Source: Oscillospiraceae bacterium
GTDB lineage: Bacteria; Bacillota; Clostridia; Oscillospirales; Ruminococcaceae
DNA: 64,000 nucleotides
Direction: 5' to 3'
NCBI GenBank assembly: GCA_017427265.1
Contig: JAFRTG010000028.1
Span: 38,679 to 102,678 of the forward strand
In this document: positions 27,830-45,622 of the stretch, piece by piece
How positions within the stretch are numbered: the stretch's first letter is position 1
How the letters are laid out: each line of letters opens with the position of its first letter
The notes under the pieces: model-generated
Told to the model about the DNA's origin: nothing
Seen by the model: only the letters and a program-made list of their open reading frames with translations
The model's database searches: none
Program-made: the position numbers and the translations under genes

Positions 27830-27901
27830 GAGCAGCGACCTTTGAGAAGCCGCGAACAGCGGCGTGAACCTGTCTTATTGGGAGAGCTCCGCTTCCTGCT
27901 C

Positions 27902-27971
27902 CCGGAGGGAATTGGCTGTCGGCACTGCCGACCCGCACTCCGAAGGGAATTGACAGCGGGCGCTGCCCGCG
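27902..27971 (+). repeat. REP-like modules (copies b and c) before lysA
   Basis: Two adjacent modules, one identical to the module at 27313 and one diverged. They end only about 20 bases before lysA, directly upstream of its ribosome binding site. No clear promoter is seen between 27830 and 27989. Confidence 0.65.
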
Positions 27972-27989
27972 TGGAAAGGATGGTAAAAT

Positions 27990-29377: not shown

Positions 29378-30328
29378 ATGCGTGTGTTTCAGATTGGCAG
29401 GAACGATGCCGGACAGCGTGCGGATAAGTTTCTCTGCAAGGCATGCCCCAAGCTGCCGAAGTCGCTGCTCTATAAGACGTTCCGCAAGAAAGACATAAAA
29501 TGCAACGGCAGACGCATCCCGCCGGAGACCTTTTTGCAGGCGGGTGATGTGCTGCAGGTCTATCTGCCGGACGACTGCTTCGGGACGGCGCAGAAGCCCA
29601 AGCCCGCGCCGGTGCTCCCGATGCCGGAAATCGTCTATGAGGATGCGCAGATCGCGCTGCTGAAAAAGCCCGTGAATCTGCCGGTGCACGCCGATGACAG
29701 GGGCAGTGCGGATACGCTGGCCGGACGATTTTTGCAGTATCTTGCCAAGACCGGCGCATACGATCCGGCAAAGGAGCAGAGCTTTACGCCGGCGCTCTGC
29801 AACCGGCTCGACCGCAACACAGAGGGCTTTGTGATCGGCGCCAAAACCGCGGAAGCGCTGCGGACAGTCAATGAGATGATCCGCGAAAACCGCGTAACAA
29901 AGCGCTATCTGTGTATCACAGCGGGATTCCCGCCGAAGCAGCAGGATACGGTTTCGGCCTATCACCGGCGCGAGGAGGGGCAGAAGGCGGAGATTTCATC
30001 GCGGCCGCGCGAGGGCTTCAAGCCGATCCGCACAGGGTATGAGGTGCTGCAAAAGCATGACGATCTTGCTTTGGTGCTTGTGACGCTGCACACGGGACGG
30101 ACGCATCAGATCCGTGCGCAGATGGCCGCGCTCGGCTGCCCGGTGCTCGGCGACAAGCGCTACGGAAACCGCGATGCGAACCGGCATTACAGCATCTCGC
30201 ACCAGCTGCTCGCGGCGTGCATTTTGCAGCTTGACGTCCCTGCGGAGGGACATCTGCTCTCGGCGCTGTGCGGGCGGACGTTCTCGTATACGCCGGAATT
30301 CTGTGCGCGGTACGGGTTTGATATCTGA
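29378..30328 (+). CDS. RluA-family pseudouridine synthase
   Basis: A 316-residue enzyme that isomerises uridine to pseudouridine in rRNA or tRNA. An N-terminal S4 RNA-binding domain (about residues 10-70, ADKFLCKACPKLPKSLLYKTFRKKDIKCNGRR) is followed by the catalytic domain with NRLDRNTEG (catalytic D145) and HTGRTHQIRAQMAALGCPVLGDKRYG near 235-265. The start is ATG at 29378 with AAAGGAGG seven bases upstream. Which of the RluA subfamilies (RluC or RluD-like) it belongs to cannot be settled by eye. Confidence 0.92.
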   Translation: MRVFQIGRNDAGQRADKFLCKACPKLPKSLLYKTFRKKDIKCNGRRIPPETFLQAGDVLQVYLPDDCFGTAQKPKPAPVLPMPEIVYEDAQIALLKKPVNLPVHADDRGSADTLAGRFLQYLAKTGAYDPAKEQSFTPALCNRLDRNTEGFVIGAKTAEALRTVNEMIRENRVTKRYLCITAGFPPKQQDTVSAYHRREEGQKAEISSRPREGFKPIRTGYEVLQKHDDLALVLVTLHTGRTHQIRAQMAALGCPVLGDKRYGNRDANRHYSISHQLLAACILQLDVPAEGHLLSALCGRTFSYTPEFCARYGFDI

Positions 30329-30636
30329 GCAAGATCGGCAAAGAATTCAGGGCTGGCATACATGAAATCATGAACCCTTGGACAGTGAATCTGCACAATG
30401 AATATGCGCTTTGAATTATGATATTTGACGGATACAGCATTTTGATTCGGAAATCAGGCTTTATTTGCTGTAAAAGGCAAAATAGAACTGATTTGTTGCT
30501 GATTATCGGTAAAACGATCTTGCTTTTTATATAACTGATGAGATGTTATCATGAACGACTTGACACCCAAAATAAGCTGCAATTTCTTGATCCGGTGTCC
30601 GATGTATATTTTCGCTGGGCGCGGGGCGCGATTGCG

Positions 30637-30667
30637 GCGGGCAGTGCCCGCTTCCAATTCCCTTCGG
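30637..30667 (-). repeat. REP-like module, inverted copy
   Basis: Reverse complement of the modules near 27313 and 27940 (hairpin GCGGGC-ACT-GCCCGC). The preceding stretch 30329-30636 is A/T-rich and holds nothing else I recognise. Confidence 0.6.
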
Positions 30668-30717
30668 AGGGCGGAGTGAGAATTGAGTTAAAATATTTAT
30701 ATTTATACTTTCATTAA

Positions 30718-30745
30718 GACATTTCGCATCCGGCGAACTTTAGAT
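30718..30745 (+). repeat. 28-bp direct repeat, left of long repeat copy 2
   Basis: Begins GACATTTCGCATCCGGCG and matches 31280-31307 at 26 of 28 positions. The pair brackets the long repeat copy 2. No such pair is seen around copy 1. Confidence 0.75.
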
Positions 30746-30751
30746 CATGCC

Positions 30752-31259
30752 TGCGGGGGCTCCCCGCCGGCACTGCCAAGGGTTCAAGAGTCCAAGATTT
30801 CATGAGTGTGAAATTGAATTCTTGAAAGCATGTTGCTATGCACTATTTATTGCTGTATACATGAAATACTGCGTATCTGTGTTATTATATGTTTTATGAT
30901 ATTGATTTATGCATAAATATACACTGGAATATACACGAAATCATGCGCAATATCATTGTATGCTTGCTTCCCGCAGACATGAAGAAACCCTGTTTTTATG
31001 CGCACGCAGCTCGAACTGACTATCGTCAGCTTCTATGCTGCCTTGGTGCGCACTGCGAATCTCTCTGAGATTCGCTTGGGGACGCCCTCTCTTACAGGGC
31101 TTCCCCCTTCCAAAAACGATCCGCAGGATCATTTTTGAAATTCCCCCTTGCGGTGCGCCTGACGATAGGGGAGTTTCGCTCTCTGCGGAGAGCGACGAGG
31201 GCGCTGCCCCTCGACCCTGCAAGCCTTTGTAAAGGCTTGACCGAAACTTTAATTTTGGG
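30752..31259 (+). repeat. Long intergenic repeat, copy 2
   Basis: Second copy of the roughly 500-base repeat (copy 1: 27298-27829), same orientation, differing by scattered substitutions and single-base indels. Like copy 1 it lies downstream of an RNA-modification gene and upstream of another transcription unit. Confidence 0.85.
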
Positions 31260-31279
31260 CGAAACCGGACATTGATTAT

Positions 31280-31307
31280 GACATTTCGCATCCGGCGGGC
31301 TTTAGAT
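31280..31307 (+). repeat. 28-bp direct repeat, right of long repeat copy 2
   Basis: Partner of 30718-30745, with two mismatches (AA versus GG in the middle). Could be an old duplication or part of the mosaic repeat. Confidence 0.75.
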
Positions 31308-31339
31308 ATATCCATACTCGTTTTTTCACAATTCTGCCA

Positions 31340-31368
31340 TTGAAATTTCACGCAGAATGTGATATAAT
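31340..31368 (+). promoter_or_regulatory. Promoter of the TerB/BrxD-like operon
   Basis: TTGAAA (31340-31345), 17-base spacer, TATAAT (31363-31368), about 40 bases before the TerB-N gene. Confidence 0.8.
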
Positions 31369-31406
31369 AAAAGGGATACCTATGCGCGAAAGGAGGCGCC
31401 GTCTGC

Positions 31407-33038
31407 ATGAGCCTGCTGTCTATGCTCAAACAACTGCTCACGGAGGTCGGTGAGGCCTATCTCGATGAGAAAATCCCCGCGGCGCCAAAAACACCCGCCG
31501 CGCGGAAGCCCGCTGCCAAAAAGTCCGCCGCTCCCGCAAAGAGGAAGATGGTCAAAAAGGAAGCACCTCCTGTGAAAATCACGCCCGTCGAGGGTGAGCG
31601 GTCACCCGTCTGGGGCTCATGGCAGGCCTACGGCGCACAGCCGATCACCCGCCCGCGCGGCGCGGGATTCGTGCAGGTGCCGGAGCAGATTCGCAGAATG
31701 CGCACGCTCTCCGGCTACATCACGCTTGACGGCACGCGCTCGATGGAAAGCCTGTTTTATCAGCAGGGCAAATTCATGGAGCAGTACACCGACGATTTCC
31801 CCGATCTGGTGCACTGCGGCCGCTCTACGCCGATGTACTATAATCTCAAGGACGACGAGCTCCGCGCCTACTTCACATGGCGCACGCGCTACCGCGAAGG
31901 GGCGCTGCCCGCGTCGCAAAATGCGTTTTTATTGCTCTACGCCTACGAGATTCTGAACCTGATCGGCTTTGCCGACGCTGCCGCCGCCTACGACGCACTC
32001 GCGCGGCTTTATGCGGATTACGGCGGACAGTTCCCGGCCGTGCGCAAGGCGGTTCTGCGCTGGATGCCCGATTTTGCGGTGTATTACCGGCAGCCCTACC
32101 GCGTCGAGGACGCCAAAGAGGCCGCGGCAATTACCATGCTCCGGCACAGCTCGCATACCGCGGAGGAGCTGCTCACCGCAGCGGACACGCTTTCCAAATA
32201 TCACATCCGCAATTCCAGCCTGTATCAGGCTCAGCCGGAGCAGGTTTCTGAGATTTTCAAGGCCGTTTATCAGGCGCTGCTGACGCATTATGCCGAGCAG
32301 AAGCAGCAGTCGTTTTCCGCGTATCTGCTGGGAGATAAGAGACGCGAGCAGCATATGATGTTCGAGGGCGCGGTGTTCTGTAACCGCACGCCCCAGCCCG
32401 ACGGCGAATATCGCCTGTCACCGCTCTGCGTCTATCACTGCTTCCGCGGTCAGTGGGCGAAGGAGACCTTCTGCACGGCGCCCGATACCGCAAAGATCGG
32501 CGCGCTGCTGCGTACATTTGATTCCATTCTCCGCGAGCAGCTGCAATTTCGTACCAAATTGAAGGCAGGCGAGCTCCCGGACGGCGATGCCGATGTCATC
32601 CGGCAGGCGATTGCGGATTATTTTGAGGAGCAGAAGCGCAAGAATGCGCCTGTTATCACGCTGAATGCGGATGAGCTTGAGCAGATCCGGCAGGCGGCTG
32701 CCCATACGGCGGACATGCTGACGCTGCCGGAGGATAACGCCGCTGAGATGCCGGAACCGCCTGCGCCCGCGCCCGATACGGACGACGGGGACGACGGCGG
32801 CGAGCTGCCCGATCTGCCGCTGAGCACGCCTGCCATGGCGCTGCTGATCTGCCTTGTGACGGGCGAATCCTATCAGCCGCTGCTTGATGCCGGGCACATG
32901 CTCTCGGTGCTGACCGACGAGATCAACGAGAATCTCTATGACAGCTTCGGGGACACGGTGCTCGAAGCCGGCGAGGACGGCGCGCCCGTGATCGTGCCGG
33001 ATTATCTCGACGAACTGAAAGGAATGCTGGAAACATGA
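31407..33038 (+). CDS. TerB-N/TerB-C domain protein
   Basis: A 543-residue cytoplasmic protein. A Lys/Ala/Pro-rich linker (about residues 25-60) precedes a TerB-N region (about 90-180) with MRTLSGYITLDG, ESLFYQQGKFM and FTWRTRYREG; the W-R-x-R step is characteristic. A long helical middle part follows, then an acidic Pro-rich linker (about 440-475) and a C-terminal segment consistent with TerB-C. Such proteins have been linked by comparative genomics to DNA-processing ATPases and helicases. AAAGGAGG precedes the ATG. Its last codons overlap the next gene in ATGA, so it is translated together with the BrxD-like ATPase. Its biochemical role is unknown. Confidence 0.8.
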   Translation: MSLLSMLKQLLTEVGEAYLDEKIPAAPKTPAARKPAAKKSAAPAKRKMVKKEAPPVKITPVEGERSPVWGSWQAYGAQPITRPRGAGFVQVPEQIRRMRTLSGYITLDGTRSMESLFYQQGKFMEQYTDDFPDLVHCGRSTPMYYNLKDDELRAYFTWRTRYREGALPASQNAFLLLYAYEILNLIGFADAAAAYDALARLYADYGGQFPAVRKAVLRWMPDFAVYYRQPYRVEDAKEAAAITMLRHSSHTAEELLTAADTLSKYHIRNSSLYQAQPEQVSEIFKAVYQALLTHYAEQKQQSFSAYLLGDKRREQHMMFEGAVFCNRTPQPDGEYRLSPLCVYHCFRGQWAKETFCTAPDTAKIGALLRTFDSILREQLQFRTKLKAGELPDGDADVIRQAIADYFEEQKRKNAPVITLNADELEQIRQAAAHTADMLTLPEDNAAEMPEPPAPAPDTDDGDDGGELPDLPLSTPAMALLICLVTGESYQPLLDAGHMLSVLTDEINENLYDSFGDTVLEAGEDGAPVIVPDYLDELKGMLET

Positions 33039-34354
33039 ATATTCCGAAGCGAATGGCCGGTGCGGTGATTCACGCGCTGCAGGGCGGTGTCGTGCCGCGC
33101 ATCGGTTTGCAGTATATTGCTGTCGGCAGAGAGCGCGAGATCGAAGCGCTGCTGCATGATATCGAGGTCATGGCGGACGGCGGCGCGTCGTTCCGGTTTA
33201 TCAGCGGCAAATACGGCAGCGGCAAGAGCTTTCTGCTGCAAACAATCCGCAATTACGCGATGGACAGGGGCTTTGCGGTCTGTGACGCAGACCTTTCCCC
33301 GGAGCGCAGACTGCAGGGCGCGAACGGTCAGGGGCTCGGCACGTATAAAGAGCTGATGCAGAACCTTTCGACCAAAACCAAGCCCGACGGCGGCGCACTG
33401 ACGCTGATTCTCGACCGCTGGATCAACGGCATCCGCACGAATGTCGCGGCGGAAAGCGGTCTGGAGCTGAATGACCCGCAGTTTCACAAGCTGGTCGAAA
33501 AGCAGATCTATACGGTCGTCGATTCGCTGAGCACGCTCGTGCACGGCTTTGATTTTGCAACATTATTGCGCATCTACTACCAGTCCTTCGTCAATGACGA
33601 CGGCGACACCAAGGCGAAGGTCGTCAAGTGGTTCCGCGGCGAATACCAGAACAAAACCGAGGCGAAAAACGACCTCGGCGTGAGCATCTGCATCCGCGAT
33701 GATGACTGGTATGAGTACATCAAGCTGTTTGCGATGTTTCTCAGGCAGGCGGGCTATCAGGGGCTCATCGTGCTTGTGGACGAGCTTGTGAACCTCTACA
33801 AGATTCCGCAGAGCATCTCCCGCGAGAAGAATTACGAGAAGATCCTGACGATGTATAACGATACCATGCAGGGCAAAGCGCAGTATCTCGGCATCGTGAT
33901 GTGCGGGACGCCGCAGTGCATGGAGGATCCGCGCCGCGGCATTTACAGCTACGAGGCGCTGCGTTCGCGTCTGGCGGACGGCAAATACTGCGACGGGCAG
34001 AACAATCTGAACGCGCCGGTTATCCGTCTGGAGCCGCTGAGCTACGCAGAAATGCGCATTCTCGTGGAAAAGCTCGCAGAGATCCACGCGCTGCTCTATG
34101 ACTATCAGCAGATCGTGACGGCGGCGGACATGGATGCCTTCATCAGGATTGAGTACGGGCGCATCGGCGCGGACAGCAACCTGACGCCGCGCGAGGTCAT
34201 CCGGGACTTCATTGAGGTGCTGGATATTCTGCAGCAGCATCCGGGCAGTACGGTCGCAGGCCTGCTGGGCGGCGAATCAGGCTTTGCCTTCACCCCGACG
34301 GCACTGGAATCGCAGGAGCCGGTCGCGGACGAATACGCCGAATTTACGGTGTAA
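33035..34354 (+). CDS. BrxD-like ATPase (DUF2791 family)
   Basis: A 439-residue AAA-type P-loop ATPase of the BREX BrxC/BrxD family. Seen: N-terminal VPRIGLQYIAVGREREI typical of BrxD, Walker A G58-KYGSGKS65, Walker B LIVLVDEL with D249-E250, and a sensor-like VMCGTPQCMED. The LTPREVIRDFIEVLDIL near the end recalls the C-terminal winged region. In type 2 BREX a protein like this is encoded with the Lhr-like helicase BrxHI. Here it is coupled to a TerB-N protein, and no BrxC/PglY, PglX methylase or PglZ is in the window. Possible role: DNA-loading ATPase in phage or DNA-damage response (inference). Confidence 0.85.
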   Translation: MNIPKRMAGAVIHALQGGVVPRIGLQYIAVGREREIEALLHDIEVMADGGASFRFISGKYGSGKSFLLQTIRNYAMDRGFAVCDADLSPERRLQGANGQGLGTYKELMQNLSTKTKPDGGALTLILDRWINGIRTNVAAESGLELNDPQFHKLVEKQIYTVVDSLSTLVHGFDFATLLRIYYQSFVNDDGDTKAKVVKWFRGEYQNKTEAKNDLGVSICIRDDDWYEYIKLFAMFLRQAGYQGLIVLVDELVNLYKIPQSISREKNYEKILTMYNDTMQGKAQYLGIVMCGTPQCMEDPRRGIYSYEALRSRLADGKYCDGQNNLNAPVIRLEPLSYAEMRILVEKLAEIHALLYDYQQIVTAADMDAFIRIEYGRIGADSNLTPREVIRDFIEVLDILQQHPGSTVAGLLGGESGFAFTPTALESQEPVADEYAEFTV

Positions 34355-34364
34355 AAGAAAGATC

Positions 34365-34382
34365 CGCGAAGCATTTTTCGCG
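34365..34382 (+). other. Small hairpin after the BrxD-like gene
   Basis: CGCGAA pairs with TTCGCG. A TATAAT at 34389-34394 follows without a good -35, so the cyclophilin gene may be read through from the operon or have a weak promoter. Confidence 0.4.
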
Positions 34383-34429
34383 TGTCTATATAATATTTTC
34401 CATATTTCACAAAGGAGCGATTGATTACT

Positions 34430-35182
34430 ATGAAAATCAAATCTTTGGCTGTATGCGCAGCCTCTGCACTGATGATGGCACTGCTTTCCGGCTGCGGACA
34501 GACTTCTGCACCGGGTACAGCCGAGAGCGGCGATGCTGCCGCGGTTGCAGAGATCGACGGTGCAGTTGTCGGCGAGAATGCATTTATCATCACGCTGTAT
34601 CCGGACGTTGCGCCGATTACCTGCGAGAATTTTGAGGGACTCGTCAAGAACGGCTTCTATGACGGCCTGACCTTCCACCGTGTCATTGACGACTTCATGG
34701 CACAGGGCGGCGACCCGAACGGCGACGGCACCGGCGGCAGCGACAAGGAAATCAAGGGCGAGTTCAGCTCGAACGGCGTGGAGAACAATCTGTCGCATCA
34801 GCGCGGCGTCATCTCGATGGCGCGCAGCATGGATATGAACAGCGCATCCAGCCAGTTCTTCATCTGCTATGCAGACTGCACGTTCTTAGACGGTCAGTAT
34901 GCAGCATTCGGTGAGGTCAAGGAGGGCATGGAGGTTGTTGACAGCTTCCTGAAGGTTGAGCGCACAATGGGCGGCGACGGCGCACCTTCCGCACCGGTTG
35001 AGCCGATCGTGATGGAGAAGGTTGCCATGATCTCTGACGATGCAGAGGGACATCCGCGTGTCGAGGTCAAGATGGCACCGATCCCGGTCAGCGAGCAGGC
35101 TGAGGAGGCTCCCGCTGAGGAAGCTCCGGCTGAGGAAGCTCCGGCAGAGGAAGCGCCTGCAGAGATCCCGACGGGAGATTAA
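34430..35182 (+). CDS. Cyclophilin-type peptidyl-prolyl isomerase lipoprotein
   Basis: A 250-residue extracytoplasmic lipoprotein that speeds proline isomerisation in folding exported proteins. The signal peptide ends in LSGC (lipobox). The cyclophilin domain (about residues 38-205) has GLTFHRVIDDFMAQGGDPNGDGTGG, the catalytic Arg in FHRV, and SQFFICYAD. The tail carries four repeats of EEAPA (about 222-245). ATG at 34430 is chosen over TTG at 34421 because AAAGGAG is then about 12 bases upstream. It separates the BrxD-like ATPase from the helicase; a functional link with them is doubtful because it works outside the membrane. Confidence 0.92.
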   Translation: MKIKSLAVCAASALMMALLSGCGQTSAPGTAESGDAAAVAEIDGAVVGENAFIITLYPDVAPITCENFEGLVKNGFYDGLTFHRVIDDFMAQGGDPNGDGTGGSDKEIKGEFSSNGVENNLSHQRGVISMARSMDMNSASSQFFICYADCTFLDGQYAAFGEVKEGMEVVDSFLKVERTMGGDGAPSAPVEPIVMEKVAMISDDAEGHPRVEVKMAPIPVSEQAEEAPAEEAPAEEAPAEEAPAEIPTGD

Positions 35183-35228
35183 GAGAAGAGGGCGTCCTGC
35201 ACAGAAACTGCGCAAGACACAGCAAAGA

Positions 35229-35268
35229 CGCGGCAGGAACCTGAATCTCCGGTTCTTGCCGCGACGTG
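35229..35268. terminator. Terminator between convergent genes
   Basis: CGCGGCAGGAACC (35229-35241) pairs with GGTTCTTGCCGCG (35251-35263), with one G-T step. T-rich on the plus side; serves the cyclophilin gene and perhaps the convergent XRE operon. Confidence 0.75.
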
Positions 35269-35286
35269 TTTATTCGGATTTTGTTC

Positions 35287-35505
35287 TTATGTCTCCGGTT
35301 CGTCCTCAGTAAATTCCAGAATATCGCCGGGCTGACAGTGCAGCGCCGTGCAGATTGCGTTGAGCGTGGAAAAGCGGATTGCGCTGACCTTGCCGGTCTT
35401 GAGCTTGGAGAGGTTGACATTGCTGACGCCGACCTTCTCGCTCAGCTCATTGAGACTCATTTTTCTGTCTGCCATGACGCGATCCAGCCGCAGAATAATT
35501 GCCAT
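35287..35505 (-). CDS. XRE-family small transcriptional regulator (YozG type)
   Basis: A 72-residue protein that is just one helix-turn-helix domain: LDRVMADRKMSLNELSEKVGVSNVNLSKLKTGKVSAIRFSTL, with Q/N-rich recognition helix SNVNLSKL. Size and sequence fit the YozG-like regulators encoded with DUF2975 membrane proteins. GAGGTG lies just upstream of the ATG at 35505. It is the last gene of a minus-strand cassette and probably controls the divergent promoter at 36827-36857. Confidence 0.9.
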   Translation of the reverse strand: MAIILRLDRVMADRKMSLNELSEKVGVSNVNLSKLKTGKVSAIRFSTLNAICTALHCQPGDILEFTEDEPET

Positions 35506-35513
35506 ATTGCACC

Positions 35514-35690
35514 TCACAGGATTTCGTTCAGGAATTTGCGGAACAGGACATATTTCATGACCGGATCGGGGTCAGCGGCTGCCCGGAGATGAACGGTCAT
35601 CCGGCCGATACATGCAAAATTGAACAGGATTGCCGGAATACAGATGCCGGCGATCCGTTTGCTGCCTTTTCTGAGCTTTTCGATCTTCAT
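35514..35690 (-). pseudogene. Truncated DUF2975-like remnant (58 codons)
   Basis: An intact short frame, MKIEKLRKGSKRIAGICIPAIL..., whose start resembles that of the neighbouring DUF2975 gene (EKLKTGSKWL...). After one hydrophobic segment it jumps to the end PDPVMKYVLFRKFLNEIL, as if the central part of a DUF2975 gene had been deleted. It ends nine bases before the XRE start and could still supply coupling for its translation. It may alternatively be a functional small membrane protein. Confidence 0.6.
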
Positions 35691-35704
35691 GCTGCACTCT
35701 TTTG

Positions 35705-36190
35705 TCAGACGGTTTCGTCCGCTTCGGTCTGAAGCAATGTGCCGTATTTCATCATCTTTGCCGCAAACAGGAACAAAAATCCCTCTGCGATGATATGCAG
35801 CGGAAACAGGTCTGCGGGAGAAAAGAACGGCGCCCGTGCAAGCAGAGAAGCAAGGAGATGCGAACCCATGCCCTGAAAGATGCAGATGCAGCCGATTATG
35901 CGCACCGAACGGATTGTTTTGGCATCAAACGGGACGCCGCTGCGGGAAATACGCCGGAAAATGAACGCCGCAGTCAGCAGCATCGCTGCAAGCAGAAGGC
36001 TTTCTGCCGCACGCTGCACGCCGTCATAGATCATAAAATCCGGATCGGCCGGTTCATTTTTCATATCGGTCAGCAGCGCGAAGAGTCTGCTGCAAGCCCG
36101 GATGATACTGCCGGTTCCGCCGGCTGCAAACACAACCGTCAGCCATTTGCTGCCCGTTTTGAGCTTTTCAGTGATATTGGTCTGTTTCAC
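35705..36190 (-). CDS. DUF2975 family membrane protein (copy 2)
   Basis: A 161-residue protein with about four hydrophobic segments (residues 14-33, 58-78, 93-112, 125-148) in the DUF2975 pattern, including RRISRSGVPFDAKTIRSVRIIG where a loop links the second and third segments, and KYGTLLQTEADETV at the end. The start is taken as GTG at 36190 because GGGAGG lies eight bases upstream; ATG at 36223 overlaps the previous gene. Function of DUF2975 proteins is unknown; they are typically paired with YozG-like regulators, as here. Confidence 0.8.
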   Translation of the reverse strand: MKQTNITEKLKTGSKWLTVVFAAGGTGSIIRACSRLFALLTDMKNEPADPDFMIYDGVQRAAESLLLAAMLLTAAFIFRRISRSGVPFDAKTIRSVRIIGCICIFQGMGSHLLASLLARAPFFSPADLFPLHIIAEGFLFLFAAKMMKYGTLLQTEADETV

Positions 36191-36209
36191 GGTAACACCT
36201 CCCTGATAT

Positions 36210-36767
36210 TCACAGTGTTTCATCGGATGCCTGCTGCAAAACCGCGCCGTACCGGATGACCCATCCGAGGAAAAACAGCATCACGGCATTTGCAAGCAGC
36301 CAGTAGGAAAAGCGATCCGGGCTGAACAGAAACAGGATGCTTTCGATATCGAGCCTTTCGCCCGGTCTGAAAAGCCGCAGTATGATCTGTTCAATGTTTT
36401 CGGTAAAGGGGAAGATTCCCTGCAAAACTGCAATGATCTGCAGGATTTTTCCGTGCCGTTCCTGAAAGGGAGATTCACTGTTCCGGATGCGCACAAACAG
36501 CCCGATCAGAATGACAACGGATGCGATCATCAAAGCCGCACGCGCGGCCTGCACCGGCACGGAACCGTACCGGACTGCGTTCAGATAATCCAGAATATTG
36601 CTGCTTGCTCCCGCTTTCTTCTGCATCTGAACCGTATAGAGCAGCTGCAGCGGTCTGGAAATCAGCTGCATCAGCAGAAACAGGATGGCAGCAATCAGAA
36701 CCGTCCTGCTGCTTTTCCGGATTTTTGTGAGTGAGGCGGTTTTCATCATGTCGTGATTCTTTTCCAT
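36210..36767 (-). CDS. DUF2975 family membrane protein (copy 1)
   Basis: A 185-residue paralog of the downstream gene, with the same four-segment plan and the same ending (RYGAVLQQASDETL against KYGTLLQTEADETV) and SPFQERHGKILQIIAVLQG in the central loop. GGAGGT precedes the ATG at 36767. First gene of the cassette, followed by copy 2, the truncated remnant and the XRE regulator. The tandem paralogs point to local duplication. Confidence 0.8.
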   Translation of the reverse strand: MEKNHDMMKTASLTKIRKSSRTVLIAAILFLLMQLISRPLQLLYTVQMQKKAGASSNILDYLNAVRYGSVPVQAARAALMIASVVILIGLFVRIRNSESPFQERHGKILQIIAVLQGIFPFTENIEQIILRLFRPGERLDIESILFLFSPDRFSYWLLANAVMLFFLGWVIRYGAVLQQASDETL

Positions 36768-36828
36768 TTTGTACCTCCGTTTACTGAAAATCGTCCTGTT
36801 GTCCGGAGCCTTTTGCTCCGCTGCCTGT

Positions 36829-36857
36829 ATCATAGCACAGAGTTTAATGTTTGTCAA
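36829..36857 (-). promoter_or_regulatory. Promoter of the DUF2975/XRE cassette
   Basis: TTGACA (36857-36852), 17-base spacer, TATGAT (36834-36829). Confidence 0.85.
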
Positions 36858-36867
36858 CTAGTTTTTA

Positions 36868-36881
36868 ACGATAAACGATAA
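36868..36881 (+). promoter_or_regulatory. Operator-like tandem ACGATAA repeats
   Basis: Two perfect tandem 7-mers, ACGATAA-ACGATAA, just upstream of the cassette -35. An inverted copy lies at 36951-36964. Likely binding sites for the small XRE regulator (inference). Confidence 0.6.
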
Positions 36882-36936
36882 AAATTAGATGCTTGCACAA
36901 TCCGGCATGACGGATCCGCGAGCCCCATTATGCATG

Positions 36937-36964
36937 TTACCGATCAGAATTTATCGTTTATCAT
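36937..36964 (+). promoter_or_regulatory. Helicase promoter region with inverted operator copy
   Basis: TTATCGT-TTATCAT (36951-36964) is the reverse complement of the tandem repeats at 36868, with one mismatch. It overlaps a plausible -10 (TATCAT, 36959-36964) served by TTACCG (36937-36942), so a factor bound here would block helicase transcription. Confidence 0.5.
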
Positions 36965-36972
36965 AAAACGGA

Positions 36973-36991
36973 ACGGAGGCGAAACTTCCGT
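36973..36991 (+). promoter_or_regulatory. Hairpin hiding the helicase ribosome binding site
   Basis: ACGGAGG pairs with CTTCCGT (one G-T step, loop CGAAA) and ends on the base before the ATG. It buries the only Shine-Dalgarno sequence, suggesting low or switchable translation. Confidence 0.5.
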
Positions 36992-39238
36992 ATGGATGCA
37001 TTTTCACGCTATGCGCCCTTTATACAGGACTATATTTTCCGGCAGGGCTGGGAGCAGCTGCGGGCGGTACAGGTTGCCGCTGCGGACGCGGTCTTCAATA
37101 CAGAGGACAATGTGCTGCTGTCCGCCTCGACGGCTTCCGGCAAGACCGAAGCGGCCTTTTTTCCGGTGCTGACGCTGCTGGAGGAGAACCCGCCTGCATC
37201 CGTCGGCGCAATCTATATTGCCCCGCTGAAGGCGCTCATCAACGACCAGTTTTCCCGCATGACCGAGCTCTGCGAGCCTGCGGATATCAAGGTCTGGCGC
37301 TGGCACGGGGACGTCGGGCAGTCACAGAAGGCAAAGCTCTTGAAGCACCCGTCGGGCATTCTGCAAATCACGCCGGAATCGCTCGAAGCGCTGATGCTGC
37401 ACAAGCACGCAATGATTCCCGCGCTGTTCCGCGATCTGCGCTTTGTCATCATTGACGAGGTACACTCGCTGCTGCGGGGCGACCGCGGCGGCCAGACGCT
37501 CTGCCTGATTGAGCGCCTTTCAGACCTGTCCGGTGCAAAACCGCGCAGAATCGGGCTTTCCGCGACAATCGGCAACATTGAGCAGGCGGCGGAATATCTC
37601 GGCACCGGTTCGGGACGGCGCACCGTCATCCCGCAGCTCGCGCCGCAGAAGAGCACATGGCGGCTCTCGATGGAGCATTTTTATGCGATGGATACGCAGG
37701 CAGCAGAGGGCAGGGAGATCGAAGCAGCCGAGCCGCTCGAACGCGAAACAGACCCCGCTCCGTCCGCCGCAGACCCCGCATACGGCTATATTTTCGCGCA
37801 TACGCAGGGGAAAAAGTGTCTGGTCTTTGTCAATTCCCGCGAGGAATGCGAGGCTGTGACGACCTCTCTGCGGCAGTATTGCGAGACAAAGCATGAGCCG
37901 GAGCGCTTCCTGATTCATCACGGCAATCTCTCTGCGGCGATCCGCGAAACGGCAGAGGCGGTCATGAAGGACGAGGAGCAGTGTCTGACGACCGTCACCA
38001 CGGCGACGCTGGAGCTCGGCATCGACATCGGCAAGCTGGAGCGGGCATTTCAGCTCGATGCGCCGTTCACGGTCTCGTCGTTCCTGCAGCGTATGGGGCG
38101 CACGGGGCGGCGCGGTCTGCCCCCGGAGATGTGGTTTGTCATGCGCGAGGAGGAGCCGGAAGCGCGTGCGATGCTGCCCGCAACGGTTCCGTGGAAGCTG
38201 CTGCAGGGCATTGCGCTGGTGCAGCTTTATGCCGAGGAGCACTGGGTTGAGCCGCCGAAGCTCGACCGGCTGCCGTTCAGCCTGCTCTATCACCAGACGA
38301 TGAGCACGCTGGCCGCAAACGGCGAAATGACGCCCGCACAGCTTGCAGGAAGGGTTCTGAAGCTGCAGCCGTTCCACCGCATCACACAGGACGATTACCG
38401 CATTCTGCTGCGGCATCTGATTGAAAAGGATCACATTCAGCGCACGGAGCGCGGCGGCCTGATTGCAGGGCTTGCCGGCGAGCGTGTCCTCAATCACTAT
38501 AAATTCTACGCGGTTTTCCAGGACAGCGAGGAGTTCACGGTGCGGTCGGAATCGCAGGAGATCGGCACGATCGTACAGCCGCCGCCCGCCGGAGAGAAAA
38601 TTGCGATTGCAGGGCGCGTGTGGGTTGTGGATGAGGTCGATTTTGACCGCCACACGGTCTACTGCACAATGGTCAAGGGCAAGGTGCCGGCGTATTTCGG
38701 CGACTGCCCCGGTGATATCCAGACAAAGATTCTGGAGCGGATGCGCAGGGTGCTGCAGGAGGAGCAGCAGTATCCGTATCTGATGAAGAACGCGGCTGCA
38801 AGGCTTGCGCAGGCGCGGCATACGGCGGAGAACTCCGGCCTGCTGCATGAGCCGCTGATCTGTCTGGGCGGCGACATGTGGGCGCTGTTCCCGTGGCTCG
38901 GCAGCTATGCATTTCTGGCGCTGGAACGCTTCCTGAAGATCCGCTGCGCGAAGGAGCTGTTTTTATCCGGTCTGTCGCCGGCGCGGCCGTATTTCATCAC
39001 GTTTAAGATGAAGGCGGATAAGGCGGCGTTCTTCCGCGTATTGCGGGAGCAGGCCGAAGCGGAGTGGGATCCGATGGAGCTTGTCTATCCGGATGAGATT
39101 CCGCTGTTTGAAAAGTATGATGAATATGTTCCGGCAGAGCTGGTGCGCAAGGGCTTTGCCTATGGCATTCTGGCTGTGGATGAGATGAAGGCGCGTGTGC
39201 TGGAATGGGCAGGCACGATGCTTCCCGCAGTGCAGTGA
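36992..39238 (+). CDS. Lhr/BrxHI-like DEAD/DEAH helicase
   Basis: A 748-residue superfamily II helicase. Motif I is STASGKTEAA (K51), motif II D155-E-V-H158, motif III LSAT, and motif VI QRMGRTGRRG near residues 365-374. After the two RecA-like domains comes a winged-helix and Lhr-type C-terminal extension (about 440-740), shorter than in full-length Lhr. The size fits BrxHI of type 2 BREX. No nuclease or DUF1998 domain is seen. It faces the DUF2975/XRE cassette across shared operator-like sites and lies 2.6 kb from the BrxD-like ATPase with which such helicases are usually encoded. Confidence 0.85.
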   Translation: MDAFSRYAPFIQDYIFRQGWEQLRAVQVAAADAVFNTEDNVLLSASTASGKTEAAFFPVLTLLEENPPASVGAIYIAPLKALINDQFSRMTELCEPADIKVWRWHGDVGQSQKAKLLKHPSGILQITPESLEALMLHKHAMIPALFRDLRFVIIDEVHSLLRGDRGGQTLCLIERLSDLSGAKPRRIGLSATIGNIEQAAEYLGTGSGRRTVIPQLAPQKSTWRLSMEHFYAMDTQAAEGREIEAAEPLERETDPAPSAADPAYGYIFAHTQGKKCLVFVNSREECEAVTTSLRQYCETKHEPERFLIHHGNLSAAIRETAEAVMKDEEQCLTTVTTATLELGIDIGKLERAFQLDAPFTVSSFLQRMGRTGRRGLPPEMWFVMREEEPEARAMLPATVPWKLLQGIALVQLYAEEHWVEPPKLDRLPFSLLYHQTMSTLAANGEMTPAQLAGRVLKLQPFHRITQDDYRILLRHLIEKDHIQRTERGGLIAGLAGERVLNHYKFYAVFQDSEEFTVRSESQEIGTIVQPPPAGEKIAIAGRVWVVDEVDFDRHTVYCTMVKGKVPAYFGDCPGDIQTKILERMRRVLQEEQQYPYLMKNAAARLAQARHTAENSGLLHEPLICLGGDMWALFPWLGSYAFLALERFLKIRCAKELFLSGLSPARPYFITFKMKADKAAFFRVLREQAEAEWDPMELVYPDEIPLFEKYDEYVPAELVRKGFAYGILAVDEMKARVLEWAGTMLPAVQ

Positions 39239-39313
39239 ACCGGAAATGCGATACAGTCGGCGGCGGACGGATACAGCCGCAAACGGGTGAATCATAAAAA
39301 AGGGGATGGGTTT

Positions 39314-42300
39314 ATGAACCGAAGAAAAATCGGCAGCCTGCTGACGGCGGCTGCCATGATGATGCAGACTGCGGGGCAGCTTCCGGTCTGTGCGGCAGAT
39401 CTGACCGCATTGCCGGCAGAGACACTCACGGATTTTGCGGAGGATGTCCGGGCACTGACGCAGGGGGATGCAGGGCATTCGTTTTATCAGGCGCTGCAAT
39501 ACGATCCGGCACGCGGTGTGCTGGAAGCGGACGGCGAAGCGCAGAACGGCTTCTGCGGCGACCTGACGGTTCGCAGCGGCAGACTGATGATCTGTGCGCA
39601 GCAGCCTGCAAAAGGCGCGTCCGGCTTGCAGACCGCAGGCTGGATTCTGCCGTATTCAGAGGAAGCGGCATCGCAGCTCGGCTATGAAACGGAAACGGCT
39701 GACGGCGTGCTGTCGATCACAAACGAGTTCCAGACCGCGCGCCTGATTGTCAAGGCAGCGGGAAAGGTCGATCCGCACGGCGCCTGCGAGGCCGCCGAGG
39801 GCTACCGCGATCTGCACATTCTGCAATATGCGTCCCCGGCAGAGGCCTATGCGGCATATCAGTTGTATCAGCAGGAGCCCGGCGTGCAGTACGTGCAGCC
39901 GTCGCACCGCGTCTTTCTCGATACGCAGGACTGCGATGCGCAGCTCAGCGGCGTCGATACGGATGTTTATATGACATGGGGCGCCGACCTGATCGGCACG
40001 AAGAGCTTTATCGACGAATATCTGACTGCGGAAACGCTGCCGGAGGTGACGGTTGCGGTTGTGGATACCGGCATCAACCGGAAGCCTGCGCTGTTTGAGG
40101 GCAGAATTCTGGACGGCGTGAACTTCTCCGATTCCGGCGACGATACGGATACAGACGATCTTTATCACGGCACGCATGTCACCGGCACAATCTGCGAGCT
40201 GACCGGCAGCAATGTCAGAATTCTTCCGATCAAATCATTTGACAATTCCGGGAGTGCGTCCGACGAGCAGATCTATATCGGCATTATGTATGCACTGGAG
40301 CACAATGCGGATGTGCTGAACATGAGCTTCGGCGGACTGGGCGTCAGCCCGCTGGAGGTCGAGGCGATGACGATTGCGGACGAAAACGGCATGATCTGCT
40401 GTGCTGCCGCGGGCAATGAGGGCGACGATGCGGGGTATTACTATCCCGGCAGCATTGACAGCTGCATCACGGTTGCGGCGGTCAGTCAGGAGATGAAGCG
40501 GGCGGATTTCTCCAATTACGGCAGCTCGCTGGACGTCGCCGCGCCGGGCGTCGGCATTGTCAGCTACGTGGCAGCCGGCGAAAATCTGAAGGAGAGCAAG
40601 AACGGCACGAGCATGGCGACACCGCATGTTTCGGCGTGCTGCGCGCTGCTCCGGAGCTATGATAAGCAGATGACGGCGAAACGCGCAGAGAATCTGCTGC
40701 GGCTCAATGCCGTGGATCTCGGCGAACCGGGCTTTGACAAGGATACCGGCTGGGGTCTTGTCTGCATGAAGCATTTTCAGTGGGATGACGGTGTCTGCGC
40801 TGCCCCGGCGTACTCTGTGAAATCCGGCAATTACGGCACGGCACAGACCGTCGAAATCACGACGTCCCAGCCCGATGCGGAGATCTACTACACGACGGAC
40901 GGCTCACAGCCGGATGCGGCGCACGGCATCCGCTATACCGGGCCGGTCAGGGTGACGGAATCCGTCCGGCTTCTTGCAGTGACGGTCTCCGAAGGCTGGG
41001 TGGACAGTGTGCCTTCCGAAGCGGTCTATACGATCGGCGGCAAGGATATTGCCGGCGCAATGCAGATTGAGGACGGTGTGCTCGTGCGCTACAGCGGTGT
41101 GCGGGAGCAGGTCAATGTGCCGGAATCGGCAGACGGCGTGCCGGTGACATCGGTTGCGGAGGATGCGTTTGCGGGCAATCATTTTGTGGTGCAGGTGAAG
41201 CTGCCGGGCTCGGTGACCGAGATCGGGGCGCGTGCCTTTGCGGGCTGCTCAGCGCTGGAGAGCATCTCTGCGCGCGGTGTCAGAGTGCTCCGCGACGAGG
41301 TCTTTTCCGGTGACGAAAAACTGAAATCCGCCCTGTTCAGTGAGGCAGCCGACGCGGTCGGTGTACGCTGCTTCTGCGGCTGTACTGCGCTGAAATCGCT
41401 CCGGCTCCCGAATGTCCGGAGCATCCCGGAGGAATGCTTCCGGGAATGCAAGGCGCTGACGGAGCTGTATCTGCCGGCAGCGGATTCCTTCGGAAACAGG
41501 GCATGTCTCGACTGTGCCGCCCTGACCGCGCTGACGGTCAGCTGGCCGGATGTCAGAATGATCGGTGTGCGCAGCTTTTCGGGCTGCAAGGCGTGGCCGG
41601 GCGATCTCTGCCTGGATGCGCTGACATTTCTCGGAGAGGCAGCCTTTGAGGATGACCGTGCACTGCTGCGCGTTGTTCTGCCGAAGGCGATCAAAAAGCT
41701 GCCGCTGAGTGCTCTGGCAGGCTGTACGGGTCTGCGGGAGCTTGATCTGCGCTATATTACGGATTTTGCAGGCGATTCGCTGGCGGTCAAATCCGTCCGC
41801 GACGATCTGCAGGCTGTGCTGAGCTATGACAAAATTACATCGGTCGGCACGAATGCATTCAGCGGGTTCCGGCTCGGTGACGGCTATGAAACGGTGACAT
41901 TCTCTGCACTGGAGGCGCTGAGCTTCCGGGCATTTGCGGGCGCAGCGGCGGGCGTTGTCTCGCTGCCGCAGATTTCTGCAATTCCGCGTTATACCTTTGC
42001 AGAATCGAAGATTTTCGGCGTTGTGCTGGAAAATACGGAGGTGCTGGAGCCGGAGAGTCTGCAGGGCGTGTGCGCAGCCGTTCTGACAGACAAGGTGACG
42101 GAGGCTGCAGCCGATGCGGTTCCGCAGAATACATGGATTGTCACAAAGGATACGATTCCGGCGCTGGAAAACTGCGGCGAGCTGCATTACTGCGATGAGC
42201 CGCTGATTCTGCGTGCCAATACAAAAACGCTGTCGCTGATGCTGCATGAATACGCGGATTTCCGGATCGCGGCCTGCGGCAGTGCACTGCAGGCACAGTG

Positions 42301-45300
42301 GTACCGCATGGACGGCGGGGAGGCGGTTCTGCTCGAAGGCGAAACGAACATGACCTTTGCGCCGGATACCGGCAAAGCGGGCGAAACGGTTTACCGCTGC
42401 GTGCTGACGGATTCCGAGGGCAAAACAGAACAGTCTGATTTCCGTGCGATTGTCTCCGGCGACAGAGAACGGCAGACGCTTCTGCCGGACGAATCGCTTT
42501 GCTGCGGAACGGCAGCGGCCGTCTTTTATCAGCTGACGGTTCCGGTTTCCGGCAGCTGGCAGATTGCGTCCTCCGGTTCGGCTCCGGCAGCGGGTGTCCT
42601 GACGGATGAAAACGGTGCATTTCAGGCGGGATTTGTGCGCGGGGCAGATCACAATATGTATCTGACTGCGGAGCTTGCAGCAGACAAGACCTATTATCTT
42701 GAGGTGCGCGGCCGCTGGGCGGGCAGCTATATGCTGCGGCTATCTGTGAAAAAAGCGGCGGAAAACCGCATTGAGGACTGCCGGCTCAGCACATCCGCTG
42801 CGGCCTCTGCGGCGTATGACACCGGCTATCAGCCCTCGCTGACGGTGATCGGCAAGGACGGCACCGAGCTGCAGGCAGACCGCGACTATACGCTTTCGGT
42901 GACAAAGCACAATCAGAATTATATCATGGAGGTTTACGGCATCGGCGATTACTGCGGCTACAGCGCCGTGACGGTTCCGGTGCTTGACCGGATTCCGTCG
43001 GATACGCCGGTTCCGGTGCATCTGAACGGCAAGGATGACCATGCCGTGTTCATGTTTATCCCGAAAACAACCGATACCTATTACTATTACGCGACGATTG
43101 CGCCGGGCTACGCGGAGGAGCAGGCGGTCTATAACCGCAGAGGTTCCTACAGTGCCGATGCCTGCTGCGTCAATCTGCGGACGAAGTGCACGGTTTCTTC
43201 CAAAGCGGATGCTGACGGCATCATCTATTCTGAAAACAGCTATTCGCCGGTGAGCGGAAAATCGTTCCTTGAATCGGTTGTGCTGAATGCCGGTCAGGTT
43301 TATTACTTCACATGCATCTCTGATATCCGTTCGGAGTTTTCGCTCGTGGTTTCGCAGCAGCGCCGGGATATCCGCGATGCAAAGGTCACCGGCATCTCGT
43401 TCGGCGAGTACGAGCCGGGCAAGGCCTGTACGCCGAAGCCGACCGTGAAGCGCAACGGCGAGCTGCTGACGGAAGGCGTGGACTATCAGCTGATCTATAC
43501 GGACAACGATGTTCCCGGAAATGCGAAGGTGACGATCGAGGGCATGGGACTTTATACCGGACGGCTTGTGCAGGAATTTGAAATTGCAATCGGTGATACA
43601 CCCGCTCCGGCAGAATATATCGGGATTGACGAGCCTGTGCGCACATCTTGCACGGACGGCCGCATCACGATGCTCTGGTTCCGGACGGAGACCGGCAGCA
43701 CGCCGAATGAAACGGTACGCTACCGCGTGCTGAACGAGCGCGAAAGCGGCGGCGCAATCCTTTACCGGCTGTATTCCTATCATGCAAAAAGCCAGACACT
43801 TTCTCCGGTTTATCCGATGAATGAGGCCAGCGACGATTATATGCTGGTCAACGGCACATACTGCATCATCCTGTACCGTCAGTTCGCGGAAAAGGCCGGT
43901 ACAACAAATGTCTCGGTGTTCCGGCCGTATTCCGTCACGGATGCTGCAATGGAGATCGGTACGGCGGTTTATACCGGAAGCGAGGTGCCGCCGCCGCTGA
44001 CATTCACGGCTGCCGACGGCTATGTGCTGCAGTACCAGAAGGATTATACGGTCAGCTATCCGGAGGGCAATATCATGTTCGGTGAGGTGCCGTTCACGGT
44101 GCGTGCAACCAAGCGCACCTACGGCTCTGCGACCGGTACGTTTGAGATTGCCGTGAAGCTGCCGGCAGATGCGCCGGAGCTGACGCCCGGAGAACATACG
44201 GCAAGCGTGACGCTGGAGGATCGCCTTGCGGTATACAGGCTCACGCCGGAAACTGACATGACCTATCTGCTGGCCTGTGAGGATGCCCCGAACATTGTAC
44301 TGAGAGTGTTCTCGCCGGAGGCAGAGATGCTGGAGCAGGTCTACGGCGCCGGTACGAAGGCGGTTTCCTTTGAGGTGCCTGCCGGAGAGACGCGCTATAT
44401 CATGGTAAAGTATAACGGCACGGAGCGTGAGGGTACGATTCACTTCCGGCTCGAAACGGACGAAAAAATGCTCAGTGCGTGCGAGGTCACGGCAAATCCC
44501 GTGATCTGGACGGGCGAGGCCGTCACGCCGGATATTACGCTGACGGACGGCGGCTATGTGCTGCAGGAAGGCACGGATTATGTGCAGCGCTATATTGTGG
44601 ACGATGTCAGTCTCGGCACGGCAACGGTCAATTACATCGGCAAGGGCCGCTATGTCGGCATGACGGATGTGACCTTCCCGGTGATTGCAGAGAGCCTGCT
44701 GCAGCATCCGGATACGGAGACGGTCAGATTCCGGTCGGAGACTGTGCCGGACGCGATTCCGCTTCCGCTGAATCAGCTGCGCAATCTGCGCAATACCGAG
44801 CACAAGCCGTTCCTGCTGATGAGCTATACGGCAGGCATTGACATGCAGCTGCATATCACGGTTCTGAATTCGTATTCCAAGCTCACGCTGCAGCTTTACA
44901 ATGAAGCGGGCGAATATCAGGACAGTCTGTTCTTCCGCAAGAACGGCCAGACGGATTACGATATGAAGCAGGGCGAAACCTGTTATCTGCTCGCTGCTGC
45001 AACCGATATTTCCGGCACGAATCAGGTGTTTGACATTTTGCTGACAGACAAGAGCAATCCCGGCATGGAATGGTTCTCCGACCCTGAGACCGGCATTGCG
45101 TTCCGGACGGATCCGGCACTTCACTATACCGAAGCGTGCTTTATCGTGCCGAACGGCAAGCCGCTGGTACTGCCTGAGACAATCCGGGAGCAGCCTGTGA
45201 CGGTATATTCCCCGGCAGTGTTTGCAGCGCTCGGCATCGGGGATACCGTGATCGGTGATCCGAACGGCCCTGCACCTGTTTACGCGGATTTGTACCGCTA

Positions 45301-45622
45301 TCTGTTCCTGCCCGCGGCAGATGCGGAGCAGCCCGCAGAGCATCTGACCGGAGATCTGAACGGCGACGGCCGTCTCTCACAGGCGGATCTGATTGCGTTT
45401 GCGGCGTTCCTCGCGGAATATACCGCTGAGGGTGCTGCGCCGTATTCCTTTGAAGGAATGGATCTGAACGGCGACGGACTCTATGCTTTTGATGATCTGA
45501 TGCTGCTTGCAAAGCAGATCAGTGAAGCAGAGAATGCCGAACAGCCTGCCGATCCCCCGGCGGATGTGCCCGCGGAGCCGCAGGAACCAGTTCCGCCGGC
45601 AGAAACCGGCACAGAGCAGTAA
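39314..45622 (+). CDS. Giant secreted subtilase with LRR, beta-sandwich repeats and dockerin
   Basis: A 2102-residue exported protein. Signal peptide (1-28); propeptide-like part (about 30-220); S8 peptidase domain (about 240-480) with the triad D251 (VVDTG), H285 (HGTHV) and S433 (NGTSMATPH); a chitobiase-type domain (about 495-575, IYYTTDGSQPD); BspA-type leucine-rich repeats (about 600-930, VTEIGARAFAGCSALESI); an Ig-like region; then alternating PPC-like sandwiches and four repeats with the pattern DY...NxxxGxAxVxxxGxGxYxG (starting near 1155, 1360, 1540 and 1720); and near the end a dockerin with loops DLNGDGRLSQADL and DLNGDGLYAFDDL, followed by a Pro/Glu-rich tail. Probably a cell-surface or cellulosome-attached protease. 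ATG at 39314 follows AAGGGGATGGG. Transcribed as a single gene. Confidence 0.88.
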   Translation: MNRRKIGSLLTAAAMMMQTAGQLPVCAADLTALPAETLTDFAEDVRALTQGDAGHSFYQALQYDPARGVLEADGEAQNGFCGDLTVRSGRLMICAQQPAKGASGLQTAGWILPYSEEAASQLGYETETADGVLSITNEFQTARLIVKAAGKVDPHGACEAAEGYRDLHILQYASPAEAYAAYQLYQQEPGVQYVQPSHRVFLDTQDCDAQLSGVDTDVYMTWGADLIGTKSFIDEYLTAETLPEVTVAVVDTGINRKPALFEGRILDGVNFSDSGDDTDTDDLYHGTHVTGTICELTGSNVRILPIKSFDNSGSASDEQIYIGIMYALEHNADVLNMSFGGLGVSPLEVEAMTIADENGMICCAAAGNEGDDAGYYYPGSIDSCITVAAVSQEMKRADFSNYGSSLDVAAPGVGIVSYVAAGENLKESKNGTSMATPHVSACCALLRSYDKQMTAKRAENLLRLNAVDLGEPGFDKDTGWGLVCMKHFQWDDGVCAAPAYSVKSGNYGTAQTVEITTSQPDAEIYYTTDGSQPDAAHGIRYTGPVRVTESVRLLAVTVSEGWVDSVPSEAVYTIGGKDIAGAMQIEDGVLVRYSGVREQVNVPESADGVPVTSVAEDAFAGNHFVVQVKLPGSVTEIGARAFAGCSALESISARGVRVLRDEVFSGDEKLKSALFSEAADAVGVRCFCGCTALKSLRLPNVRSIPEECFRECKALTELYLPAADSFGNRACLDCAALTALTVSWPDVRMIGVRSFSGCKAWPGDLCLDALTFLGEAAFEDDRALLRVVLPKAIKKLPLSALAGCTGLRELDLRYITDFAGDSLAVKSVRDDLQAVLSYDKITSVGTNAFSGFRLGDGYETVTFSALEALSFRAFAGAAAGVVSLPQISAIPRYTFAESKIFGVVLENTEVLEPESLQGVCAAVLTDKVTEAAADAVPQNTWIVTKDTIPALENCGELHYCDEPLILRANTKTLSLMLHEYADFRIAACGSALQAQWYRMDGGEAVLLEGETNMTFAPDTGKAGETVYRCVLTDSEGKTEQSDFRAIVSGDRERQTLLPDESLCCGTAAAVFYQLTVPVSGSWQIASSGSAPAAGVLTDENGAFQAGFVRGADHNMYLTAELAADKTYYLEVRGRWAGSYMLRLSVKKAAENRIEDCRLSTSAAASAAYDTGYQPSLTVIGKDGTELQADRDYTLSVTKHNQNYIMEVYGIGDYCGYSAVTVPVLDRIPSDTPVPVHLNGKDDHAVFMFIPKTTDTYYYYATIAPGYAEEQAVYNRRGSYSADACCVNLRTKCTVSSKADADGIIYSENSYSPVSGKSFLESVVLNAGQVYYFTCISDIRSEFSLVVSQQRRDIRDAKVTGISFGEYEPGKACTPKPTVKRNGELLTEGVDYQLIYTDNDVPGNAKVTIEGMGLYTGRLVQEFEIAIGDTPAPAEYIGIDEPVRTSCTDGRITMLWFRTETGSTPNETVRYRVLNERESGGAILYRLYSYHAKSQTLSPVYPMNEASDDYMLVNGTYCIILYRQFAEKAGTTNVSVFRPYSVTDAAMEIGTAVYTGSEVPPPLTFTAADGYVLQYQKDYTVSYPEGNIMFGEVPFTVRATKRTYGSATGTFEIAVKLPADAPELTPGEHTASVTLEDRLAVYRLTPETDMTYLLACEDAPNIVLRVFSPEAEMLEQVYGAGTKAVSFEVPAGETRYIMVKYNGTEREGTIHFRLETDEKMLSACEVTANPVIWTGEAVTPDITLTDGGYVLQEGTDYVQRYIVDDVSLGTATVNYIGKGRYVGMTDVTFPVIAESLLQHPDTETVRFRSETVPDAIPLPLNQLRNLRNTEHKPFLLMSYTAGIDMQLHITVLNSYSKLTLQLYNEAGEYQDSLFFRKNGQTDYDMKQGETCYLLAAATDISGTNQVFDILLTDKSNPGMEWFSDPETGIAFRTDPALHYTEACFIVPNGKPLVLPETIREQPVTVYSPAVFAALGIGDTVIGDPNGPAPVYADLYRYLFLPAADAEQPAEHLTGDLNGDGRLSQADLIAFAAFLAEYTAEGAAPYSFEGMDLNGDGLYAFDDLMLLAKQISEAENAEQPADPPADVPAEPQEPVPPAETGTEQ

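Follow-up and report, generated by a model that had tools for sequence, protein, structure and literature searches.

An antiphage Shango locus, identified by sequence as complete and split by a cyclophilin gene, in an Oscillospiraceae bacterium

The locus at 31407-39238 of a 64,000-nucleotide stretch of DNA from an Oscillospiraceae bacterium (contig JAFRTG010000028.1 of assembly GCA_017427265.1; the whole stretch is called the window) was identified from its predicted proteins as the known three-gene antiphage system Shango (SngA-SngB-SngC), which appears complete and is not a reduced bacteriophage exclusion (BREX) system. Shango (SngABC) was reportedly described by Millman in 2022. Expression of Shango in P. 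aeruginosa inhibited several phages, as stated in a passage of Johnson 2023 (PMC10250203), and a role against phages, already suspected in an earlier reading made from the letters alone (the sequence-only reading), is judged likely for the window locus. The interpretation considered quite likely here is that a complete Shango system was probably present early in the genus, has descended mainly vertically, and was split in the lineage of the window by a cyclophilin gene and variable cargo. Protein identities, presence or absence of the block at a shared site, intact motor motifs, purifying selection and a basic SngA N-terminus were all computed directly. The three genes are as follows.

31407..33038, plus strand: SngA, 543 aa, with TerB_N at aa 90-282 and TerB_C at aa 402-538 (Pfam)
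33035..34354, plus strand: SngB, 439 aa, a BrxD-like AAA+ ATPase with an ATGA overlap with SngA
36992..39238, plus strand: SngC, 748 aa, an Lhr/BrxHI-type superfamily 2 (SF2) helicase with DEAD and Helicase_C domains (Pfam)

All three open reading frames (ORFs) are intact, and SngC starts 2637 bp downstream of the end of SngB on the same strand. The arrangement noted in the sequence-only reading, a TerB-N protein overlapping an ATPase with intact Walker motifs and an SF2 helicase about 2.6 kb further on, was confirmed by the ORFs and by Pfam. Both SngA domains passed the Pfam cut-offs (TerB_N, E 5e-15; TerB_C, E 1e-19), and the only PADLOC match of this protein was the SngA model PDLC03958 (2.3e-56). 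SngB matched PF10923 (BrxC_BrxD) at 550 bits (5.8e-165) and the PADLOC SngB model PDLC03959 at 601 bits (3e-181), compared with 180 bits (2.4e-53) for BrxD. SngC scored 916 bits on the SngC model PDLC03960 (5.9e-276) and 427 bits on BrxHI (3.4e-128). Each protein was assigned in this way to its Shango component. The Walker A (GKYGSGKS) and Walker B (LIVLVDE) motifs of SngB are intact and nearly invariant among relatives (alignment A2). The SngC motifs ASTASGKTEA, DEVH, SAT and QRMGRTGRR, which we take to be helicase motifs I, II, III and VI, are also intact. In alignment A3, whose 35 rows include the window, almost every residue of these motifs is invariant, the exceptions being S46, conserved at >=90%, and V157 and M368, which fall outside the conserved list. 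Pfam showed no nuclease domain in SngA, SngB or SngC, and no solved structure usable by sequence was found for SngA or SngB.

A central TerB domain was likewise not found by Pfam in the window SngA. This is not peculiar to the window, because 8 of 9 other SngA proteins tested lack it as well; since these eight and the window protein have no PF05099 match, not every Shango system requires the domain. The ninth, encoded on an Azospirillum plasmid (L164:2789-4966), carries it. The window locus thus shares with Shango a TerB-family protein, a BrxD-like ATPase and an Lhr/BrxHI-like helicase, here in that order on one strand, and differs in being split by a cyclophilin gene and cargo, in the strongly basic N-terminus of its SngA, in its presence in most of the genus genomes, and in that no defence island was seen.

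The BrxD-like/Lhr-like pair had been read as a stripped BREX module, a reading that is corrected here. The two proteins are related to BrxD and BrxHI, as had been claimed, and the homology is genuine at the PADLOC values given above. In type 2 BREX a homologous ATPase and helicase form the BrxD-BrxHI dyad, suggested in part of PMC12839542 to be a loader-motor pair. The Shango models nevertheless score far higher on the window proteins, SngB reached only 181 bits on the NCBIfam BrxD equivalog NF033438 (cut-off 350), and SngA gave no match to a BREX model. The genome, 99% complete at 3.82 Mb in 49 contigs, contains a single TerB_N gene, which is SngA, and a single PF10923 match, which is SngB, so that no separate BrxC/PglY ATPase was found, although a PglY too divergent for PF10923 would escape. 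The missing PglZ noted in the sequence-only reading was borne out, PF08665 having no match in the genome; in 30 genomes of the genus it was over the cut-off in none and gave weak partial matches in 12. The same searches, which did not cover methylase or PglY, brought up no BREX set elsewhere in the genome that might use these proteins. With SngB as its only BrxC/BrxD-family ATPase and PglZ unmatched, the genome does not support a stripped BREX module, and the window differs from type 2 BREX in these two respects as well as in its added TerB protein. BREX identity was rejected and a stripped BREX-type module is regarded as extremely improbable, and the sequence-only reading as a whole is partly supported. 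In the accessible text of the NAR 2026 BREX survey the word Shango has 0 uses.

Co-occurrence of the three genes was assessed in 197 genomes of the family. SngA was found in 24, SngB in 25 (counting a weak 19.5-bit match in G002) and SngC, at E<=1e-80, in 23, and all three were present in 23. Association of SngA with SngC gave a Fisher p of ~4e-29 with the genomes taken as independent. The helicase and the TerB/ATPase pair are therefore not independent in this sample, and the earlier claim that the three genes belong together holds, with co-occurrence far above chance. Chance adjacency of the helicase was rejected on the basis of the 23 of 197 genomes with all three genes and the closeness of SngC to SngB outside the lineage of the window. 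In the 24 genomes with a good SngB, its contig also carries SngA in 21, SngC in 19 and both in 17; a contig end falls inside SngB in three (G133, G080, G194). Four family genomes have all three genes even though the parts lie far apart (G019, G180, G122 and G094, with loci L011, L020, L022 and L019 among them). Retention of the three parts in genomes where they are dispersed argues that they function jointly, and against this background the split seen in the window is less surprising.

For comparison of loci, 80 of the 230 found were kept, ranked by similarity to the window SngB, and all counts of lineage against other loci rest on these. The lineage was defined as the 20 loci L050-L069 (SngB identity >=78%) together with the window. 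All three genes were present in 13 of the 20 lineage loci and 56 of the 60 others, and six of the seven incomplete lineage loci have a contig end in or soon after the block. In the window, the space between SngB and SngC contains the following features.

34430..35182, plus strand: lipoprotein-like cyclophilin (peptidyl-prolyl isomerase), PF00160 2.2e-45; start and Shine-Dalgarno sequence read in the sequence
35705..36223, minus strand: small membrane-protein-like gene, PF11188 (DUF2975) at a sub-threshold 23.7 bits (cut-off 27); variable gap cargo
36210..36857, minus strand: small membrane-protein-like gene with no family over the cut-off, start probably ~36767 (by eye); variable cargo
36857-36829, minus strand: promoter-like site (consensus match), noted with the 36210..36857 gene

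With three genes, two of which run in the opposite direction, between it and SngB, SngC lacks the direct adjacency that is usual for Shango. Adjacency was counted as a usual and not a defining feature, because a gap above 800 bp occurs in 4 of the 59 non-lineage loci measured, and distant parts in 4 of 24 family genomes. The gap measures 873-4637 bp in 15/15 measured lineage loci, compared with no more than 500 bp in 55 of the 59 outside. Its content varies among relatives (L051, L054, L060, L065), with membrane-protein and hydrolase-like genes. Outside the lineage, L074 and L083 carry other SngB-SngC inserts, 4.5 kb in the first and 1.5 kb in the second; both contain an ORF that looks NUDIX-like by eye.

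The cyclophilin gene lies between SngB and SngC in 18 of the 20 lineage loci, as against 0/60 others; it is missing at the locus in lineage members L064 and L067, and a 70% relative is carried by a Shango-less genome, G201. A signal peptide and lipobox were recognised by eye, without a prediction tool, and the protein is probably exported. It was considered as a Shango subunit and thought unlikely to be one, since it looks exported, does not occur in any of the 60 non-lineage loci and is missing in two loci of the same genus with divergent Shango. It is probably a passenger, because an exported isomerase would hardly be able to work with cytoplasmic DNA motors.

It was also considered whether the system consists of SngA and SngB alone, with SngC an independent Lhr-like helicase left nearby. 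The 2.6 kb window gap with its opposed genes, and a gap of at least 873 bp throughout the measured lineage loci, would fit this proposal. It is nevertheless very improbable: SngC scores 916 bits on the SngC model, 55 of 59 measured non-lineage loci have it no more than 500 bp from SngB, its constraint is similar to that of SngB, and genomes with dispersed parts retain it too.

Expression signals were sought in 30200-39400, where 10 promoter-like sites were found compared with 4.5 expected, all of them known from consensus match alone. A Shine-Dalgarno sequence precedes SngA, and one site lies close to it.

31340..31368, plus strand: promoter-like site TTGAAA-17-TATAAT, the -10 preceded by TG, just ahead of the start of SngA; 11/12 consensus positions

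Across the genus, described here as a gut/rumen genus, SngB was present in 25 of 30 genomes and in 13/13 of high quality, compared with 25 of 197 in the family sample; one of the 25 genus genomes, G221, has only an SngB fragment. Presence and absence could be compared at a shared site. G208 (L159), which lacks SngB, has a protease followed directly by GTPase-spoIIGA-PEPCK (names by eye), and G216 (L145) has the protease, an SngC-SngB-SngA block and then GTPase-spoIIGA-PEPCK. Comparison of these flanks indicates that Shango was gained or lost as one block at this site. Parts of the G216-type upstream flank are common to L064, L066 and L067. LysA and a pseudouridine synthase are the present neighbours of the block in the window and in L050, L054 and L060. 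The Shango of G216 and G108 is divergent (SngB 68% and 62%) and lacks the cyclophilin; Shango was probably at the site before the cyclophilin arrived.

SngB distances correlated with those of LysA across 18 lineage genomes (r 0.66, with 0/2000 permutations as high), as did SngA distances across 15 genomes (r 0.84). In the SngB tree the placement of G216 and G108 is weakly supported, and L146 forms a long branch. Recent horizontal gain by the window was unsupported, given that the GC content of Shango is like that of its flanks and that the distances track LysA. Shango in this genus looks like an inherited, widespread chromosomal part. No match was found in 50,697 phage records, and one 38% relative was located on a viral contig. 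A plasmid collection contained 691 records with an SngB relative of <60% identity, 542 of them predicted conjugative (Klebsiella 449, Salmonella 144); the two plasmid loci examined, from Paenibacillus and Azospirillum, are both TerB-ATPase-helicase trios.

Several observations weigh against a complete, mainly vertically inherited and secondarily split Shango. The parts are not always together: SngA lies away from an SngB-SngC pair in G019 and G180, SngC lies away from an SngA-SngB pair in G122, and in G094 the three parts lie on three contigs beside unrelated genes. L067 is a true exception in the lineage: SngA and SngB are separated there by other ORFs, and the 10 kb downstream contain no SngC. 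The window SngC is parted from SngB by two opposed genes, which cut it off from SngAB so that it should need its own promoter, and none of the ten promoter-like sites in 30200-39400 lies just upstream of SngC on its own strand. SngB had no match in 5 of the 30 genus genomes, all of them metagenome-assembled genomes of 1.7-2.1 Mb and 75-88% completeness. Finally, wide presence together with strong constraint is unusual for defence and also fits a housekeeping role.

Defence systems are usually patchy and mobile. A housekeeping role would mean that the Shango of this genus was co-opted for genome maintenance, such as fork or damage processing, with defence secondary or lost. Its prevalence in the genus agrees with this, as do the rates of evolution. 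Nonsynonymous and synonymous rates (dN/dS) between the window and L050 were 0.03/0.63 for SngB and 0.05/0.78 for SngC, so that SngC is slow too, compared with 0.08/0.73 for LysA, 0.13/0.87 for RlmL and 0.18/0.95 for the pseudouridine synthase; these are simple Nei-Gojobori estimates with dS often near 1, and the upstream housekeeping genes come from four loci only. Conservation was higher for SngB than for LysA in 15 of 19 genomes and lower in G108, G216, G200 and G213. No defence island was seen either, with Pfam applied to 28 window ORFs and PADLOC to only 8 window proteins; the 28 ORFs comprise transport, metabolic and glycoside-hydrolase genes and several without a family. On the other side, Shango is missing from the shared site of G208 and was not found in four further genomes, which argues that it is dispensable; it is patchy in the rest of the family, the Paenibacillus and Azospirillum trios are plasmid-borne, and SngA, the fastest of the three (0.21/1.03), evolves as a recognition protein might. 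Co-option for housekeeping is accordingly considered unlikely, and an inherited antiphage Shango remains the preferred reading.

The basic tail at the N-terminus of SngA offers a single testable feature.

31476..31601, plus strand: Lys/Ala/Pro-rich basic tail of SngA, approximately aa 24-65 (bounds by eye)

In alignment A1 (54 rows, one for the window and 53 from the 69 loci that could be extracted), the stretch before Pro92 carries a net charge of at least +8 in 12 of 14 lineage rows, with +4 in L062 and L067 and a lineage median of +13. None of the 40 non-lineage rows, which include G216 and G108, reached +8 (median 0, range -4 to +5). The stretch is 64-106 residues long in the lineage versus a median of 46 in the others. 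The lysine tail presumably resembles those of the histone H1 type.

A mechanism may be proposed from published views on BrxD-BrxHI and on the helicase clade, together with the evolutionary rates. BrxD is suggested to load or activate BrxHI in part of PMC12839542, and in sections of PMC12278908 a helicase clade described as potentially distinct unites SngC with BrxHI, DruE and DpdJ. By analogy SngB, an ORC/Cdc6-like AAA+ ATPase, might oligomerise and load or activate SngC on invading or abnormally replicating DNA, a loader-motor step that is slightly favoured. Translocation or unwinding by SngC would then block the phage, and damage would be done by the motor itself or by a host nuclease, because Pfam shows no nuclease domain. 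SngA, the fastest-evolving component, could act as a sensor or adaptor controlling when the motor acts; the chances of a sensor role are put at about even. The lysine-rich tail of the lineage might hold SngA on DNA, an anchoring role for which the odds appear balanced. The exported cyclophilin would be a passenger in this scheme.

SngC resembles the Hachiman, Druantia and Dpd helicases in that it groups with BrxHI, DruE and DpdJ in the published tree, and the Hachiman helicase HamB is described as a sensor SF2 helicase (both from PMC12278908). The partner proteins differ, and the window trio has no nuclease domain by Pfam. A table row of a 2026 review (PMC12926258) places Shango among systems of unknown mechanism. 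No paper on the Shango mechanism was found in the part of the literature covered, which included few subscription papers, and one could exist.

A more far-reaching proposal, which is speculative and somewhat doubtful, is that Shango in this genus has become a vertically inherited core-genome immune or surveillance machine, with SngB and SngC more constrained than housekeeping neighbours and a newly gained, histone-H1-like lysine tail anchoring SngA on DNA without sequence specificity. If so, a sporadic defence system would have turned into a standing chromosomal guard. A genus with Shango in 13/13 high-quality genomes, LysA-like descent, and a slow motor beside a fast TerB subunit offers a natural experiment on SngA.

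The gene downstream of SngC is its usual neighbour in the genus.

39287..45622, plus strand: large subtilase-like protein, 2111 aa

Of the 14 lineage loci in which SngC is full, 13 have the subtilase gene after it, L058 being the exception, and so do L145 and L146 (G216 and G108). Its PADLOC matches were to a generic subtilase model and, weakly, to IetS. The subtilase was rejected as a part of Shango, since orthologues occur in Shango-less relatives. The family has many matches per genome, and the subtilase stays beside Shango through rearrangements.

An intergenic repeat is present in two copies, at 27312-27974 (before LysA) and ~30640-31310 (before SngA), which share 213 nt at 85% and 197 nt at 96%. 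A 425-bp query taken from the repeat gave 30 matches in the genome, most of them over parts of its second half only, and the repeat is possibly a non-coding mobile element. Elsewhere in the window are a dockerin-bearing esterase (18782-19966) and a glycoside hydrolase family 9 (GH9) cellulase (49760-52219), from which the host appears to be a fibre-degrading, possibly cellulosomal bacterium.

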